From assembly GCA_030145305.1 (NCBI GenBank), contig JAQYVX010000011.1, forward strand, positions 1 through 64,000: a stretch of DNA of 64,000 bases, given 5' to 3'. Of this stretch, positions 33,735-41,977 are shown piece by piece. Origin of the DNA: Halarcobacter sp. Lineage in GTDB: Bacteria > Campylobacterota > Campylobacteria > Campylobacterales > Arcobacteraceae. The translations under genes and the position numbers were made by a program. Numbering within the stretch: the stretch's first letter is position 1; each line of letters opens with the position of its first letter. Below the pieces are notes generated by a model. It was not told the origin of the DNA. It saw only the letters and a list, made by a program, of their open reading frames with translations, and searched no databases.

Positions 33735-33761
33735 ATTATTAAATTGGAGAACTCGCTAACG

Positions 33762-35375
33762 ATGCTACAAAATCCAGAAATTAAAAAACTGATACTAAAA
33801 CTTTGGAATATCTTTTGGTCAGGTGGAATTTCAAACCCTCTTGTTGCAATCGAACAGATAACTTATCTTATTTTTATAAAAAGACTTGATATTTTAGACG
33901 ATGAAAAAAGAGAAAATGATAAAAAATATATTTCTGTTTTTGATGGTAAATATAAAAAAACTATCAAAGTTAAAAATGAAGAAACAGAAAAAGAAGAAGA
34001 TAAAGAAATTGAAGTTTCAAAAGAAGAATTAAGATGGTCGAAAATTATAGAAATGGAAGACAAAGAAGAAAGGCTTCAACACATTTCAAAAAATGTATTT
34101 CCTGAAATTAAAAAATTAGAAGATGAAAATAGTCATTTTACAAAACATATGGCAAATGCTGTATTTATTATCCCGAGTGCCTCTTTACTTTATGATGTTA
34201 TGAATATCATTGAAGATATTTTTAAAGAGATTTATAAAGATAGACACGATAAAAAACAGACTCATCAAGATATACAAGGAGATGTTTATGAACATCTTTT
34301 AAATGAAATAGCAACAGCAGGTAAAAATGGTCAATTTAGGACACCAAGACATATTATAAACTTATTAGTTGAGTTAGTTGAACCAAAAGAAAATGATAAG
34401 ATTGTAGATCCTGCTTGTGGTAGTGCGGGATTTTTATTGGGTGCTTATCAATATATATTAACAACTTTAGATAAAGACGGAAAATATAGTGATACTGATG
34501 ATGATGGATTTACAAGAAGTAGTCAAGCAATATTAACGGAAAATCAAAGAAAAAATTTTAGTCAAAATTTAAAAGGTTTTGATATCGATTTGACTATGGT
34601 ACGTCTTGGACTTATGAATCTTATTATGCATGGTATTGAAAATCCTGAGATTGATTATTTGAATACTTTAAGTAAAAAATTTCAAGATCATAAAAATGAA
34701 CTAGAAACATATGATGTAGTTCTAGCAAATCCTCCGTTTACTGGAAATCTAAATGAAGAGGATAAAGATGAAAATCTTGAACTAGTAACAACTAAAACAG
34801 AGCTTTTATTCATAGAAAGAATTTATTCCCTGCTATCAAATAATGGAACAGCAGGAATAATTATACCTCAAGGAGTACTTTTTGGTACAGGAAAAGCTTT
34901 TATAGAAACTAGAAAACTGATGATAGAAAGTTCACAACTTAAAGCTGTAATTAATATGCCAAGTGGAATTTTTAAACCTTATACAGGAGTAAATACAGCT
35001 ATTCTTATTTTTACAAAAGGGAAAACCACTGAAAAAGTTTTCTTTTATGATATGAAGAGTGATGGACGTAGTCTTGATGATAGAAGAAATAAAATATATA
35101 AAGATAATGGAGAATCTGATTATGGTGACCTTCAAGATATTATCAATAAATATAAAGATAGAAAAAAAATAAATGATGATAAAAAAGAAAGATATTTTTT
35201 AGTTGATAAAAAAGAGATAGTTGAAAATGAGTATGATCTTAGTTTTGAAAAATATCATGAGCCTACTGACGAAGAGATTAACTATCGTGACATAAATGAT
35301 ATTTTAAATGAACTTATCACGTTGGAAGATAGTATTCAAATAGAACTAAAAGAGATAAAAAATTTATGTCAATGA
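33762..35375 (+). CDS. hsdM: Type I restriction-modification methyltransferase subunit HsdM
   Basis: 537 residues. N6-adenine methyltransferase subunit. An N-terminal helical HsdM_N region (about 1-150) is interrupted by a charged, Lys/Glu-rich stretch (60-80). SAM-binding motif I is DPACGSAGFLLGAY (about 216) and catalytic motif IV NPPF (about 323). TPRHIINLLVELV-type text (RTPRHI) precedes motif I. I chose ATG 33762; an in-frame TTG at 33744 lies before the GGAG. The stop overlaps hsdS. First gene of the five-gene run; no hsdR is linked. Confidence 0.93.
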   Translation: MLQNPEIKKLILKLWNIFWSGGISNPLVAIEQITYLIFIKRLDILDDEKRENDKKYISVFDGKYKKTIKVKNEETEKEEDKEIEVSKEELRWSKIIEMEDKEERLQHISKNVFPEIKKLEDENSHFTKHMANAVFIIPSASLLYDVMNIIEDIFKEIYKDRHDKKQTHQDIQGDVYEHLLNEIATAGKNGQFRTPRHIINLLVELVEPKENDKIVDPACGSAGFLLGAYQYILTTLDKDGKYSDTDDDGFTRSSQAILTENQRKNFSQNLKGFDIDLTMVRLGLMNLIMHGIENPEIDYLNTLSKKFQDHKNELETYDVVLANPPFTGNLNEEDKDENLELVTTKTELLFIERIYSLLSNNGTAGIIIPQGVLFGTGKAFIETRKLMIESSQLKAVINMPSGIFKPYTGVNTAILIFTKGKTTEKVFFYDMKSDGRSLDDRRNKIYKDNGESDYGDLQDIINKYKDRKKINDDKKERYFLVDKKEIVENEYDLSFEKYHEPTDEEINYRDINDILNELITLEDSIQIELKEIKNLCQ

Positions 35376-36946
35376 AATTTATACCATTTCAAAAAGCAAT
35401 AAAAGATGTAACTTCTAAGTTTACAAAAATAAAAAAGCAAAGCTATTTAAAAAATGGGAAATATCCTATTATAGATCAAAGTAAGAATTTAATTGCTGGT
35501 TATACAGATGATTATAATTTATTAGAAAACTTTGATAACGATATAATAATTTTCGGTGATCATACAAGAATTTTTAAATATATTGACTTTCCCATAGCAA
35601 TCGGGGCTGATGGTGTAAAAGTTTTGCAAGTTGATAAAAAGATATTTAATACTCAGTATCTATACTATTATTTTAAATCTATCAAATTAAAAGATGCTGG
35701 ATATAGTAGACACTTTAAGTTTTTAAAAGAGAAGAAAATCCCTGTATTAGAAATTGACAATCAAATAAACATATCTAACTTTTTATCTAAAATAGAAAAA
35801 CTAATCCAACAAAGAGAAAAAAGCATAGAATTACTTGATGAATTAATTAGAAGTACATTTTTAAATATGTTTGACAGTCCTATTTCTAATCCTAAAAAAT
35901 GGGAAAAAACTACTCTTGGGAAATTAGGTGATTGGAAAAGTGGGGGTACACCATCTCGTACAAATCAAGATTTTTTTAAAGGACATATTCCTTGGATAAG
36001 CTCAGGAGAATTAAATAATATGTTGATCTCTAGTGCAAATGAATATATCACTGATGATGCAATTGCAAAATCTAATACAAAAATAGTTGAAAAAGGAAGT
36101 TTATTACTTGGAATGTATGATACTGCAGCCTTAAAATCTAGTGTTAATACTATTGAATTAACTTGTAATCAAGCGATAGCTTTTTCAAAACTAAATGAAG
36201 AAAAATGTAATACTTATTATATTTACCATTTAATTCAAATTGGTAAAAAACATTTTAAGCGTCTGAGAAGAGGTGCAAGACAGAAAAATATGAATATCTC
36301 TATGATTAAAAATATTCCTATAATATTACCACCAAAAAAATTACAAGATAAATTTGCAGATGCAGTAATTAAAATAGAAAATACAAAAAAAATCTATCTA
36401 AGTAGTCTTGTTGAATTAAGACAGCTTTTTGGTGCAGTTTCTCAGAAAGCTTTTAAAGGAGAATTGAATTTAAGTAAGATTGAACTTACGCAAATTAGTG
36501 AAGTTAAAGATGTAGCTCCAAAAATAAAACAAGAAGTTATTAAACAACCAAAACAAGAAACAAAAAGTCTTTTAACTAAACTTATTAATATAGGATTAGT
36601 TATTGGAGGAAGTGCTGTAACTGCTTATACTGCTAAAAAAATATTTGATAATTATAATACAGATATTACAAATACTATTGTAAAAGATGGTAAAAATATT
36701 ATTGAATATGATAGAGATGTAGAACTATATTTTAATGATATGTTTTTAAAGAGTTTTATTAAAATGTTTCAAGAAAAAGAGATAGTTACTAACCAACGAT
36801 TATTAGAAGAACTAAATAAAATAGACTTTCAAAACAAACCTACATTTTCAAATATAAAAGATGCTCTGATGCATCTATTAGAAAAAAATGAAGTTCAACA
36901 GTATAATAATAAATTTGAAAATATTGCATTTAGGATAAAAGAATGA
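35366..36946 (+). CDS. hsdS: Type I specificity subunit HsdS with extra C-terminal region
   Basis: 526 residues, longer than the usual 400-450. Two target-recognition domains: TRD1 about 1-140 (YPIIDQSKNLIAGYTDD, FGDHTRIFKYI) and TRD2 about 175-340 (LGDWKSGGTPSRTNQDFFKGHIPWISSGEL). Helical spacers (ISNFLSKIEKLIQQREKSIELLDEL; about 355-385) follow each. Residues about 390-526 are not typical of HsdS: a hydrophobic glycine-containing stretch (LINIGLVIGGSAVTAYTAKK) and a helical domain (TFSNIKDALMHLLEKNEVQQY). The sequence recognised cannot be read. The start may be ATG 35366 or ATG 35372, the latter giving an ATGA overlap with hsdM. Confidence 0.9.
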   Translation: MSMKFIPFQKAIKDVTSKFTKIKKQSYLKNGKYPIIDQSKNLIAGYTDDYNLLENFDNDIIIFGDHTRIFKYIDFPIAIGADGVKVLQVDKKIFNTQYLYYYFKSIKLKDAGYSRHFKFLKEKKIPVLEIDNQINISNFLSKIEKLIQQREKSIELLDELIRSTFLNMFDSPISNPKKWEKTTLGKLGDWKSGGTPSRTNQDFFKGHIPWISSGELNNMLISSANEYITDDAIAKSNTKIVEKGSLLLGMYDTAALKSSVNTIELTCNQAIAFSKLNEEKCNTYYIYHLIQIGKKHFKRLRRGARQKNMNISMIKNIPIILPPKKLQDKFADAVIKIENTKKIYLSSLVELRQLFGAVSQKAFKGELNLSKIELTQISEVKDVAPKIKQEVIKQPKQETKSLLTKLINIGLVIGGSAVTAYTAKKIFDNYNTDITNTIVKDGKNIIEYDRDVELYFNDMFLKSFIKMFQEKEIVTNQRLLEELNKIDFQNKPTFSNIKDALMHLLEKNEVQQYNNKFENIAFRIKE

Positions 36947-38574
36947 AATTATTACGAGTAAAGCTTTTATCTGAATTTAGAGGGCTTCCTAAAAACTTTG
37001 AATTAAAATTTAATAATGAGTATGAAGATTTAAGGCAGCTTGATCCTGTATGTTTAATAGGGTTAAATGGTTCTGGGAAATCAAATTTATTGGAAGTATT
37101 GTCTGAAATATTTTATTTTTTAGAAGATTTTTCAAAAGCTAAATTAAGCGACTTAAGGAAATTTGAAAAAGAATTTGGTTTTGAAATAGAATATTTACTT
37201 TCAAAAAATGTTTTTAATACTAATAAATCTAATGATGAAAAAGAAGTTAAAAGTGAACAAGTTAAAATTTTAATAAGAAAAGAAGTACAAAAATCTCCTA
37301 TCGCAACATGGTATGATGAAGATGAATATACAAGTGCTTCTCCTGAAAATTTCAAGACATATTTGCCAAATCAAATTATTGCATATTCTTCAGGAATGAA
37401 TGAACTGATAAGTAACCCATATATAAAAATGGATTTTCAATATTTAGATGAATTTACAAAATTAGCAAAAGACAAAGCAAACTTAGATGATGAAATTGAA
37501 AATAAAATGTTTTTCATGGATTATGACATAAATAAACTTATCACAATATCTAATTTTCTTTTTGATAAACCAATAGAAGATGACTATGGAGTAATCAATT
37601 TAAATCGAGTGAAAAATGAAATTAAAATTAAAGAGATTCATTCATTTTCTATTTCTATTAAATTGAGGGATAATGAAAAAAGACCTATTCTTCTACCTTC
37701 TTTTTTGAATATTGAGATTGAAAACCTAAAAAAATGTGCAACAATTTATGATGAAAAACCGTTTGAAAATAAACAAGGTAAATATTTTGAGTATGATTTT
37801 TTTTTCTATATAAATGATGTAACAAGGGCATTGGTTAAGAGATATTTTAAAACAGCATATGAATTTTATAAAACTTTATATTTTTTCAGACTTTTAAATA
37901 ATCATCTTATAAGTGCTACAACTCAAAAAATAATTAAAGAGGCAAATGAAAAAGTAAATATTTCAGCTTTAATTCCTAAGTTTGAAGAAAAAGAAAAAGT
38001 ATTTAATATCTCTGATATTGCTTTTAGAAAACTTCATTCAAAAGAACCTGTGTATTATAAACAATTGTCAGATGGGGAACATCAGTTTTTGCATGTTTTT
38101 GGGACATTACTTTTAATGAATCAAAGCGGTACATTATTTTTATTTGATGAGCCTGAAACACATTTTAATCCTGATTGGCGTTCAAAGTTTGTAAGTACTA
38201 TAAATGAATCAATCAAAGATGAAATGATTCCAAGAGAACAAGAATTAATATTAACAACTCATTCCCCTTTTATAGTATCAGATTGTAAAAAAGAAAATGT
38301 ATTTAAATTTCAAAAGAATTCTAGAGGGAAAATAGTTCCTCCTGTAAATCCAAGTTTTGAAACTTATGGATCATCTATTAATAAAATTACAATGCAGTTT
38401 TTTGGGAAGAAAGATACAATATCTCAATTTGTATTAGAACAACTTAGAAACATAAAAAAAGATATTGATAATAAAGAAATAGATTTGGAAGACGCACAAG
38501 TGTTATTGAGACAGTTTGGTGAATCTATTGAAAAAATGGCTATGGAAGAATATGTAAAGAGAGTTAAAAAATAA
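36943..38574 (+). CDS. ABC-type AAA ATPase of a restriction-linked ATPase/HNH module (PtuA-like)
   Basis: 543 residues, a RecF/SMC-like ATPase. Walker A GLNGSGKS (40-47); signature-like LSDGEHQFLH (about 374); Walker B TLFLFDEPETHFNP (about 398); switch His in LTTHSPFIVSD (about 438). Between them is a helical insertion of about 300 residues. No TOPRIM or nuclease motif follows, so it is not a Gabija or OLD protein. Resembles the ATPase of Septu (PtuA) and families annotated as restriction-system-associated AAA ATPases. It overlaps hsdS by ATGA and its stop overlaps the HNH gene start (TAATG). It probably senses or loads on DNA for the HNH protein. Confidence 0.85.
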   Translation: MKLLRVKLLSEFRGLPKNFELKFNNEYEDLRQLDPVCLIGLNGSGKSNLLEVLSEIFYFLEDFSKAKLSDLRKFEKEFGFEIEYLLSKNVFNTNKSNDEKEVKSEQVKILIRKEVQKSPIATWYDEDEYTSASPENFKTYLPNQIIAYSSGMNELISNPYIKMDFQYLDEFTKLAKDKANLDDEIENKMFFMDYDINKLITISNFLFDKPIEDDYGVINLNRVKNEIKIKEIHSFSISIKLRDNEKRPILLPSFLNIEIENLKKCATIYDEKPFENKQGKYFEYDFFFYINDVTRALVKRYFKTAYEFYKTLYFFRLLNNHLISATTQKIIKEANEKVNISALIPKFEEKEKVFNISDIAFRKLHSKEPVYYKQLSDGEHQFLHVFGTLLLMNQSGTLFLFDEPETHFNPDWRSKFVSTINESIKDEMIPREQELILTTHSPFIVSDCKKENVFKFQKNSRGKIVPPVNPSFETYGSSINKITMQFFGKKDTISQFVLEQLRNIKKDIDNKEIDLEDAQVLLRQFGESIEKMAMEEYVKRVKK

Positions 38575-39587
38575 TGTTATTTAATTATAGACTTTTTAAC
38601 CATGATGTTGCAAAGTTACAAATCTTTTTAGAACATACTGTTTTAGAAGTATGGTGTAAGTCAGATACTAATAGTGAATTCTCAACTGACTTATTACATT
38701 CTGAGTATACTATGCTATATCGGACAAGAAATAAACTTCACAAAGATATTGAGGAAATATTTAATATTTTTAAAACTTTATCTAATGTAAAAAAAGAAAG
38801 AATAAAAGAGATTTTTATAAATAATAATAAAATTGAAGAATTATGTAAAGGATTAGGAAATGGTATATTTTATAAAGAAATTAAAGATGAAATAGATGAA
38901 AGCTTAGCTGATAAACTAAAAGCATTTAACAACTATTTATACAATTTTTTAGATAAAAAAGATGCTTCTTTTGTAGGAAACTTTGACTCATTAACTGATT
39001 ATTATAAAAAGCTTGTTTCTCAGTTGCCAGCTAGTATATGCCCCTTTTGTGGAATTGAAACTATCAAATCTAAAAGGTTAAGTAGAAGAGATGCATACGA
39101 TCACTACTTACCCAAATCACTATTTCCTTTTACAGCTGTAAATGTTAACAATTTAGCTCCAATGTGCAAAGAGTGTAATGAAGATTGGAAAGGTGATAAT
39201 AATCCTATTAAAACAAATAAAGATGGAGGAGATAATAGAAAAACATTTTATCCATTTAGCTCTAATTTATATGATTTGAAAGTTTCAATAACACGATTAG
39301 AAATAGACCCTTTATTTGATGAAGATGAACATAATATTGAAATAGAGTATAGTTGTGAAGGTCATGATGAAGAAGTTGATACATGGTTACAATTATTTAA
39401 TATTAATGAAAGATATGATGATTGTATAAGAACAAAACTTCAATACTGGCTTGAAAATTGGCGTATAATAAATGATGAGAGTAATAATCAGAAAAAAATT
39501 GAATATACTCAAAATAAGAAAGATAATAAATTTATCGATACAAACTTTTTAAATTTAGCAGTACTTGAAGCAAGAGAAAATTTATAG
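38574..39587 (+). CDS. HNH endonuclease, partner of the AAA ATPase (PtuB-like)
   Basis: 337 residues. HNH zinc-finger nuclease core: CPFCG (about Cys155/Cys158), DHYLPKS (catalytic His about 176), VNNLAPMCKECNEDWKGDNNP (Asn about 191, Cys pair about 197/200). The first 150 residues are helical and charged, presumably contacting the ATPase; the C-terminal 110 are acidic, unknown. One-base overlap with the ATPase stop shows tight coupling, as in Septu ptuA-ptuB. Likely cleaves invading nucleic acid; substrate unproven. Confidence 0.85.
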   Translation: MLFNYRLFNHDVAKLQIFLEHTVLEVWCKSDTNSEFSTDLLHSEYTMLYRTRNKLHKDIEEIFNIFKTLSNVKKERIKEIFINNNKIEELCKGLGNGIFYKEIKDEIDESLADKLKAFNNYLYNFLDKKDASFVGNFDSLTDYYKKLVSQLPASICPFCGIETIKSKRLSRRDAYDHYLPKSLFPFTAVNVNNLAPMCKECNEDWKGDNNPIKTNKDGGDNRKTFYPFSSNLYDLKVSITRLEIDPLFDEDEHNIEIEYSCEGHDEEVDTWLQLFNINERYDDCIRTKLQYWLENWRIINDESNNQKKIEYTQNKKDNKFIDTNFLNLAVLEARENL

Positions 39588-39595
39588 GAACCATT

Positions 39596-40894
39596 ATGGG
39601 TTTATCTGAAAAAACAAAAAAAATAATCTGGGGACAATTTGCAGGAAGATGTGCTATATGCAAAGAAAAAGTAATTCATGAAAATGAAGATGGAAATAAG
39701 TCTTTATTTGGAGAAGTGGCTCATATAATAGGTGAAAAGAATGGGTCAGCTAGATTTTCAAATAGAGTGGATATAGAGTATAGGAATAGTGAAGAAAATC
39801 TTATGCTGTTATGTGCAAACCATCATACAGTGATAGATAAAGATGAAAATGTAAATGACTATAGGGTAGAAAAATTACATCAAATAAAAGACGAGTATTT
39901 AAATTGGTTAGAATCAAGTCTGAGTAAAAGTGTAAAATGGGATGTAAATTTAGCACATTTATTTTATTTAAATATTCCTAGATTAAATGAAGTAGCTCTA
40001 AAATATGGATATAAAGTTAATTTACAAAAATATAATGAAAGACAGAATTTACATTCCCATGGATGGGATTTAAATTATATTATGTTAGCTTATGAAAAAC
40101 TATTTAAGAATTTACGAATTGATGCTTTAGACTTTAATAGGCTTAGTGTTATACATGAAAGTTTTATTGGGAGATTAGTATATTTTGAAAGAATTAAGTT
40201 TAGAACAAAAAATATTGATTATATTTCTGGTCAAGAAACAAATGAAATAAATTATAATTTTACAGGAGATTTAAAAAAAGACCCTCATATATATTTTACC
40301 CATTACAACGGATGGAAATTAGTTTTAAATATAAATAGGAATTGGGTTACAACAGATACAGCTTTTTCATATTTTAGACCAAGTGGTGGAGTAAGTACAT
40401 TTAGCGGTTTCTTCCGAATTATAAATGTAGATTATTCTGAAAATATAATTTTTGGATCTCCATTCACAATAGGCCTGACTCCTAGTCCTTGGGATAATAT
40501 GGTGGAGGAAAAGCATAGAGAAGGAATAAAAGAGAAAAGAGACAATATTAATGTAAATATTGTAGAAGAAAACAATAATTTAGGAGGCTTAGTCGATTTT
40601 AAAAAAGCAAAAAAAAGAGCCCAATATTTTGACTTTGCTGATCAAACATGTGATTTTTGTAAAAGAATATTAGCTAATGATAAATATATGATTGATGGAG
40701 GAACATATCAAGGTCCCTGGGCATATATGTGTGTAGGTTGTTTTGAAAAAAATGGCTATGGCATAGAGTGGGGAGTTGGACAATTATTTCAAAATTTAGG
40801 TTCAGAAGGATGGTTATTAGTAGCTGGATATGATAAAAATGAAAATGCGATTGAAGACAATTTTGAAAATTATAATTTTAAGGAATTTTTATGA
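39596..40894 (+). CDS. Second HNH endonuclease with C-terminal Cys cluster
   Basis: 432 residues, unrelated in order to the preceding HNH protein. N-terminal HNH domain: CAIC (19-22), AHIIGEKNGSARFS (about 42), then SEENLMLLCANHHTVIDKD (about 67-85), of the type often fused to sensor domains. The middle (115-340) is not recognised: it includes FTHYNGWKLVLNINRNW and SYFRPSGGVSTFSGFF, beta-rich. The C-terminus has CDFC (about 352) and MCVGC (about 379-382), a likely zinc ribbon, ending GYGIEWGVGQLFQ. It starts eight bases after the HNH gene with RBS AGGAA. May be an effector or a separate defence gene. Confidence 0.8.
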   Translation: MGLSEKTKKIIWGQFAGRCAICKEKVIHENEDGNKSLFGEVAHIIGEKNGSARFSNRVDIEYRNSEENLMLLCANHHTVIDKDENVNDYRVEKLHQIKDEYLNWLESSLSKSVKWDVNLAHLFYLNIPRLNEVALKYGYKVNLQKYNERQNLHSHGWDLNYIMLAYEKLFKNLRIDALDFNRLSVIHESFIGRLVYFERIKFRTKNIDYISGQETNEINYNFTGDLKKDPHIYFTHYNGWKLVLNINRNWVTTDTAFSYFRPSGGVSTFSGFFRIINVDYSENIIFGSPFTIGLTPSPWDNMVEEKHREGIKEKRDNINVNIVEENNNLGGLVDFKKAKKRAQYFDFADQTCDFCKRILANDKYMIDGGTYQGPWAYMCVGCFEKNGYGIEWGVGQLFQNLGSEGWLLVAGYDKNENAIEDNFENYNFKEFL

Positions 40895-40943: not shown

Positions 40944-40987
40944 TATTCCCATAAAATATCATTTTTAATTTGAAGGAAACTATCAAA

Positions 40988-41977
40988 ATGACTAATTCTA
41001 ATATACTTATATACCAAGCAGAAGATGGTAATACAAAAATTGAAACTCATCTTGTAGATGAAACAATATGGTTAAACCAAGAACAAATGAGTGAACTGTT
41101 TCAAAAAGCACGTTCTACAATTAATGAACATATTAAAAATATATATGAAGAAAAAGAGTTAAAAGAGATTCCTACTATGAAGAAATTCGGAAATCCCGAA
41201 TTTGCTAAAAAACCTACTAACTTTTATAATTTAGATGTAATCATATCAGTTGGATATAGAGTACGTTCACCACAAGGAACAAAATTTCGTCAGTGGGCAA
41301 CGCAAAGGCTTAAAGAATATATTGTAAAGGGTTTTACGATGAATGATGAACTTCTAAAACAAGCAGGTGGGGGAGATTATTTTGAAGAGTTACTTTCTCG
41401 CATTCGAGATATTCGTTCCTCTGAAAAAGTATTTTGGAGAAAGGTTCTTGATATTTATTCTACAAGTATTGATTATGACTCAAAAGCAGATACTTCAACT
41501 TTATTTTTTCAAACTATACAAAACAAAATGCACTGGGCAGCTCATGGGCATACCGCAGCTGAAATTGTTTATGAAAGAGCAAACAGCGACAATGAAAATA
41601 TGGGCTTGACTTCTTTTAAGGGTGAAAACCCTATTAAAAAAGAGATTGAAGTAGCGAAGAATTATCTTAATGAAGAAGAACTCAATATTCTTAATCGAAT
41701 GGTAACCGCCTATTTAGAAATAGCAGAGCTACAAGCTTTAAATAGAAAGCCCATGTATATGAAAGACTGGATTGAGAAAATTGATGACTTTTTAAAAATG
41801 ACAGGAAATGATATATTAACTCATTTAGGAACAGTCAGTCATAACCAAGCTTTGGAAAAAGCTAATAATGAGTATAAAAAATACAAAGAGAAAAGAAAAA
41901 ATGAATTATCAAATGTAGAAAAAGATTTTATAAAACAAATCGATAATACATCTAAAACTTTAAAAAAGAAAAAATGA
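40988..41977 (+). CDS. RhuM-family protein
   Basis: 329 residues. Matches the RhuM family found in Salmonella SPI-3 and next to many restriction loci: LVDETIWLNQEQMSELF, STINEHIKNIYEEKEL, NFYNLDVIISVGYRVRSPQGTKFRQWATQ, and the later QNKMHWAAHGHTAAEIVYERA. The N-terminus looks like a winged-helix/HTH DNA-binding domain. Biochemical role unknown. I start at ATG 40988 because the RBS GAAGGAA lies inside a longer in-frame TTG reading (40970). It may regulate or protect the neighbouring locus. Confidence 0.88.
   Translation: MTNSNILIYQAEDGNTKIETHLVDETIWLNQEQMSELFQKARSTINEHIKNIYEEKELKEIPTMKKFGNPEFAKKPTNFYNLDVIISVGYRVRSPQGTKFRQWATQRLKEYIVKGFTMNDELLKQAGGGDYFEELLSRIRDIRSSEKVFWRKVLDIYSTSIDYDSKADTSTLFFQTIQNKMHWAAHGHTAAEIVYERANSDNENMGLTSFKGENPIKKEIEVAKNYLNEEELNILNRMVTAYLEIAELQALNRKPMYMKDWIEKIDDFLKMTGNDILTHLGTVSHNQALEKANNEYKKYKEKRKNELSNVEKDFIKQIDNTSKTLKKKK

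Follow-up and report, generated by a model that had tools for sequence, protein, structure and literature searches.

A conserved C-terminal tail, predicted to be a winged helix, on type I HsdS subunits encoded beside a TIGR04435 ATPase and a PtuB-like HNH nuclease

Type I restriction enzymes are conventionally composed of HsdR, HsdM and HsdS. In the 64,000-nucleotide stretch of Halarcobacter sp. DNA analysed here (contig JAQYVX010000011.1, positions 1 to 64,000; the window), the hsdS open reading frame (35366-36946, 526 aa) runs on beyond the second helical spacer and overlaps the start of an ATPase gene, which is followed by an HNH nuclease gene; this raises the question of what the additional residues are and which partner, if any, they serve. 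An initial annotation of the sequence proposed that the extension docks the ATPase/HNH module or, alternatively, lies close to the membrane. The features of the locus are given in Table 1.

Table 1. Features of the hsdM-hsdS-ATPase-HNH locus in the window
Feature	Position	Strand	Basis
hsdM, N6-adenine methyltransferase of type I system	33744..35375	+	PF02384 E 8e-61, HsdM_N E 6e-17
hsdS core, residues 1-366, two target-recognition domains and two helical spacers	35366..36463	+	PF01420, fold
Extension part 1, variable Lys/Gln-rich linker, residues 367-454	36464..36727	+	pLDDT < 50 at 378-455
Hydrophobic stretch LLTKLINIGLVIGGSAVTAY in linker, residues 402-421, window-specific	36569..36628	+	Kyte-Doolittle
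Extension part 2, conserved C-terminal domain, predicted winged helix, residues 455-526, ~72 residues	36728..36943	+	leave-out profile, model
ATGA overlap, hsdS stop / ATPase start	36943..36946	+	sequence
ABC-type ATPase, TIGR04435 restriction system-associated AAA family ATPase	36943..38574	+	425 bits, conserved motifs
PtuB-like HNH nuclease	38574..39587	+	conserved motif; PADLOC PDC-M62B E 1e-16

The core of the window protein is that of a type I HsdS: PF01420 is found twice, the best fold match of its model in the PDB is the HsdS structure 1yf2 (E 1e-22), and the AlphaFold model, built at full length from 44 HsdS sequences, features long spacer helices at residues 130-169 and 324-363. The best-matching PADLOC HsdS profile, PDLC03062, stops at residue 367, which is the profile's own last position; the extension beyond the second spacer is therefore real, as first described, but it is larger and begins slightly earlier, with about 159 residues from near nt 36464 to the C-terminus rather than ~130 from 36535. 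The ATPase was correctly placed as starting inside the hsdS end, with its ATG at 36943, and this four-base overlap is repeated at many homologous junctions; hsdM lies directly 5' of hsdS in nearly all related loci. The ATPase scores 425.2 bits against NCBIfam TIGR04435, for which the curated cut-off is 300, and is thus a member of that family. Walker A, the SDGE signature and DEPETHFNPDW are near-invariant among ATPase relatives, as is the motif CPxCG...DHYLPK...N.NL.P.C..CN..K among those of the HNH protein; because these catalytic motifs (Walker A, signature and Walker B; CxxC and DH/N) are kept across the family, both the ATPase and the HNH nuclease are expected to be active.

Two further genes follow in the window. 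The first (39596-40894) encodes a second HNH protein, whose N-terminal HNH_2 domain is similar to those of CBASS/SAVED effectors and whose C-terminal part has no known family; it is probably not part of the HsdS/ATPase/HNH system, since it has no relative in any of the 80 related loci described below. Next in line is a RhuM-family gene (40970-41977; PADLOC candidate PDC-S05), relatives of which are found beside or inside 7 of the 80 loci.

The extension consists of two parts of differing character. The linker, about 85 residues long, is predicted to be disordered from residue 378 and displays no conservation in the tail alignment of ATPase-linked HsdS; the 12-residue hydrophobic stretch GLVIGGSAVTAY that had drawn attention is present within it at about residues 410-421 but is not conserved. 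The second part, which ends in FENIAFRIKE as noted at the outset, had been described as a helical domain; the helices stand, however the prediction adds a β-hairpin and with it a winged-helix fold. In the full-length model the tail has helices at 451-471, 476-483 and 494-506 and strands at 510-514 and 520-524, and the last 81 residues modelled on their own, from 53 tails, give the same helix-helix-helix-hairpin arrangement with a mean pLDDT of 77. By structural alignment the tail model matches winged-helix domains with Z of 8.8-9.8, among them those of cullin WHB, ESCRT-II, Zur, MarR and SAMD1; the tail is thus predicted to be a winged helix of three helices and a β-hairpin. This fold is common, and no function can be deduced from the fold alone. 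The winged helix of ScpA binds the ABC-type ATPase head of SMC (4i99), and this ScpA chain is among the tail's fold matches; as it does not stand out from many other winged helices, a kleisin-like reading of the tail was kept as an analogy only. A search of PDB sequences with the tail profile returned nothing below E 0.13, and a match to Pfam DUF7222 (E 0.025) fell below the cut-off and was set aside.

The tail is not a peculiarity of the window gene. Through the ATPase, 80 loci were collected from public genomes of Bacteroidota, Pseudomonadota, Thermodesulfobacteriota, Myxococcota, Verrucomicrobiota, Planctomycetota, Nitrospirota, Chlorobiota, Bacillota and Campylobacterota; in each of the 80 the ATPase is preceded by an HsdS gene and followed by a PtuB-like HNH gene, and in 79 the HsdS gene is the immediate neighbour, the exception being L068, in which a RhuM gene lies between the two. 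Excluding those split or cut by a contig end, the ATPase-linked HsdS are 464-730 aa long. Two Methylobacter proteins of 714-730 aa (L065:3812-6004 and L112:3860-6004) exceed most relatives by ~200 residues. Profiles of the last ~80 residues were built with relatives left out, such that sequences >50% identical to the one tested were excluded and the columns were taken from one joint alignment. These profiles detect the tail domain at or near the C-terminus in 79 of 81 ATPase-linked HsdS (E < 1e-3), including residues 457-525 of the window protein (E = 1.6e-4), and leave it undetected in two, L070 and L102. Judged by these profiles, the last ~72 residues form a conserved domain, beyond chance, and the extension marks HsdS encoded beside a TIGR04435 ATPase and a PtuB-like HNH nuclease.

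Comparison of loci with and without the ATPase, which had been suggested as a check, shows that tail and ATPase go together whichever of the two is taken as the starting point, and do so on different HsdS backbones. Of 40 whole genomes with an ATPase locus, three lack any tail match and the other 37 have a single one, located at that locus; 24 of the 37 hold 58 further HsdS frames, all of which lack the tail, and across the 37 the other HsdS frames have a median length of 429 aa versus 533 at the ATPase locus. The window genome displays the same division, as it contains two other type I loci (contigs C6 and C77) with HSDR_N genes nearby whose HsdS stop after the spacer without a tail; the expectation that ordinary HsdS end there is thereby borne out. 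In 247 evenly sampled Bacteroidota genomes, of which 168 contain HsdS, the tail occurs in 8 and the TIGR04435 ATPase above its cut-off in the same 8, the genes being adjacent (one of the 8 is the centre genome, picked for having the locus). With a single tail sequence as query, 298 genomes from the window's own phylum gave one full-length match besides the window, which adjoins the only other TIGR04435 ATPase above cut-off there, and four weak partial matches (E > 1e-4); in 289 Bacillota genomes the tail search gave matches only in the centre genome.

The association also extends to other HsdS backbones and to plasmids. In one genome of the Pseudomonadota sample (G633) an EcoKI-type HsdS, the best NCBIfam match of which is PRK09737 below that family's cut-off, carries the tail (E 1.5e-6), running into the start of a TIGR04435-family ATPase; here the gene order is hsdS-ATPase-HNH-hsdM (L204:5853-11486), and the ATPase reading frame is interrupted. 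Of three plasmids bearing the ATPase, the one from Priestia has a clear tail and that from Sphingobium a weak one, and none was detected on the Hymenobacter plasmid. On the Sphingobium plasmid pKN1 (L206:3626-5343), hsdM is separated from the ATPase-linked hsdS by two genes, one hypothetical and one for a GIY-YIG nuclease.

The place of HsdR in this arrangement differs between the window and most of its relatives. The window operon lacks the hsdR gene of a complete type I restriction-modification system, its upstream neighbour being an unrelated gene of 281 aa that stops about 70 bases short of hsdM; the window genome holds no close copy of the family's HsdR, the nearest match (33% identical) being situated on contig C77, where it has an hsdM and an hsdS of its own. 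The hsdR-less state had been regarded as typical of the arrangement, which is wrong for the family though true of the window: an HsdR-like gene lies upstream of hsdM in 56 of the 80 loci, including that of the nearest relative, in Sulfurimonas. All 56 also have the ATPase and HNH genes, so that tails on HsdS of ordinary hsdR-containing loci, which would have spoken against the link to the ATPase, were not encountered. Because most family operons carry hsdR, the ATPase/HNH pair is usually an add-on to a complete type I system. Replacement of HsdR was considered as a general rule and dropped, since hsdR lies directly upstream of hsdM in most relatives. Eleven operons, the window included, are scored as hsdR-less, and their distribution over the ATPase tree requires two separate positions at the least and is most simply read as three; on this placement hsdR has been lost at least twice with the ATPase and HNH retained, and the window is a derived hsdR-less case. 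Of these eleven, all keep the ATPase and HNH and all but one keep the tail (undetectable in L102), which indicates that the tail goes with the ATPase/HNH pair and not with HsdR.

Evidence on the direct partner of the tail comes from comparing divergence between genes. Pairwise tail distances correlate with those of the ATPase (0.51) and HsdM (0.48) and less so with those of the HNH (0.38), but show no correlation with those of the second recognition domain (0.09); partial correlations that control for the remaining genes are 0.27 for tail and ATPase, 0.20 for tail and HsdM, and -0.10 for tail and HNH. The correlations thus point, weakly, to the ATPase as the candidate partner, and the partial correlation with HsdM implies that shared operon history explains part of the tail-ATPase signal. 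The proposed docking to the ATPase/HNH module accordingly gains indirect support, through co-occurrence of the tail with the ATPase and through divergence correlated with that of the ATPase but not of the HNH protein.

As the tail is found only beside this ATPase, it probably ties the ATPase and nuclease to the restriction-modification enzyme, and we consider it fairly probable that the extension is a flexible adaptor that docks the ATPase/HNH effector onto HsdMS. The disordered linker and winged helix would tether the TIGR04435 ATPase to the HsdM2-HsdS complex; direct contact would be made with the ATPase rather than with the HNH protein, which would be brought in through the ATPase. HsdMS would provide sequence recognition and the discrimination of methylated from unmethylated sites, and the ATPase/HNH pair would act as an additional effector, or in the window as the sole effector remaining in the operon, triggered by unmodified DNA or by interference with HsdMS. 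The substrate of the HNH nuclease need not be DNA, as a comparable Septu gene pair cuts tRNA-Tyr. Against docking, L070, L102 and the Hymenobacter plasmid have the ATPase with no detectable tail, and the Sphingobium tail is weak; furthermore, winged helices are common and many bind DNA, and the window's own tail is neutral rather than acidic.

The strongest alternative also has the tail as a dock but supposes the logic of a guard rather than that of restriction: the tail would hold the ATPase/HNH pair inactive on the methylase until a phage anti-restriction protein or DNA mimic blocks HsdMS, whereupon the pair would be released to cut tRNA or DNA and stop growth, in the manner of PrrC with EcoprrI. 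We regard this as possible, if rather doubtful. The hsdR gene in most family operons fits it, the pair then being added to a complete restriction system; PrrC/EcoprrI and PARIS provide precedents (PMC12707154), and a related Septu ATPase-HNH pair cleaves tRNA-Tyr upon phage infection (PMC13096335). The repeated loss of hsdR fits a stand-alone effector instead, as the operons that lost it with hsdM-hsdS-ATPase-HNH intact have no restriction left to guard, and the homology to Septu is distant, with the NCBIfam PtuA cut-off not reached.

The remaining alternatives give the tail a role apart from docking. It is unlikely to be a second DNA-binding or modification-reading domain of HsdS whose link to the ATPase reflects DNA loading: winged helices often bind DNA and the fold matches include the DNA-bound SAMD1, RTP and MecI, but the domain is missing from ordinary HsdS, and the tail has a median net charge of -5 and is negative in 80% of relatives, while the HsdS core is basic (+9); such acidity disfavours DNA binding in general, although the tail of the window, being net neutral, departs from the family median. 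A part in the structure or assembly of HsdM or HsdR, the tail being inherited by chance with the operon lineage, would account for the correlation of tail distances with those of HsdM; this is quite unlikely given that the tail is retained after loss of hsdR and is also carried by the EcoKI-type HsdS, in a differently ordered operon adjoining the same ATPase family. The membrane-proximal element envisaged in the initial annotation on account of the hydrophobic stretch is highly improbable, as the best 19-residue Kyte-Doolittle mean is 1.57 against a usual cut-off of 1.6, none of 81 linkers reaches 1.6 and no other exceeds 1.27, and the linker is predicted to be disordered.

If the extension is a docking adaptor, deletion of the 72-residue tail should uncouple recognition from the effector, which bears on how Septu-type systems might be gated by methylation or by anti-restriction proteins. 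A widespread operon type adds, and sometimes substitutes, a Septu-like ATPase/HNH pair in type I systems, and the tail is a simple sequence mark for locating such systems. More broadly, and only tentatively, the winged-helix adaptor may turn type I methylases into guides or sensors for an HsdR-independent Septu-like ATPase/HNH pair, a modular 'methylation-gated Septu' in which the adaptor was added to more than one HsdS lineage.

Among known systems, the closest are the TIGR04435 operons themselves, as the window ATPase is a member and the order of hsd genes, ATPase and HNH recurs across phyla. Plasmid records already annotate the ATPase under the "restriction system-associated" name, and it is thus known at the level of annotation; the NCBIfam name covers the ATPase alone and not the HsdS tail. 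The tail matches no Pfam or NCBIfam family above cut-off, no description of it was found in the literature on TIGR04435, on HsdM/HsdS with ATPase and HNH, or on rlo genes, and it is apparently without prior description. Related ATPase/HNH candidates are listed in PADLOC as PDC-M62, many of which one survey treated as Septu duplicates (PMC11811056). MADS, the methylation-associated defence system (MAD2/MAD3/MAD5), likewise combines HsdM-like and HsdS-like proteins with an AAA ATPase; the corresponding window proteins are weakly similar and remain far below the NCBIfam cut-offs (MAD2 121 vs 720 bits, MAD3 27.6 vs 420 bits). EcoprrI-PrrC resembles the window in that a type I restriction operon also encodes an accessory effector, part of which is an ATPase; however PrrC is a single protein with an anticodon nuclease domain, while the window has separate ATPase and HNH genes and a tailed HsdS, and its ATPase reading frame shows ATPase families only, not the ATPase and anticodon nuclease joined in one protein of PrrC/RloC. 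Septu and retron-Septu share with the window an ABC-type ATPase (PtuA) followed by a CxxC/HNH nuclease (PtuB). The window pair matches the PADLOC profiles PtuA1 (E 7e-53) and PtuB1 (E 9e-9), and its HNH protein carries the CxxC and DH...N..C..CN pattern of the Septu partner, the PADLOC PtuB match being distant; the ATPase scores 37.9 bits against NCBIfam PtuA, for which the cut-off is 500. Unlike Septu, the window pair belongs to an operon for type I modification whose HsdS bears an adaptor-like domain.
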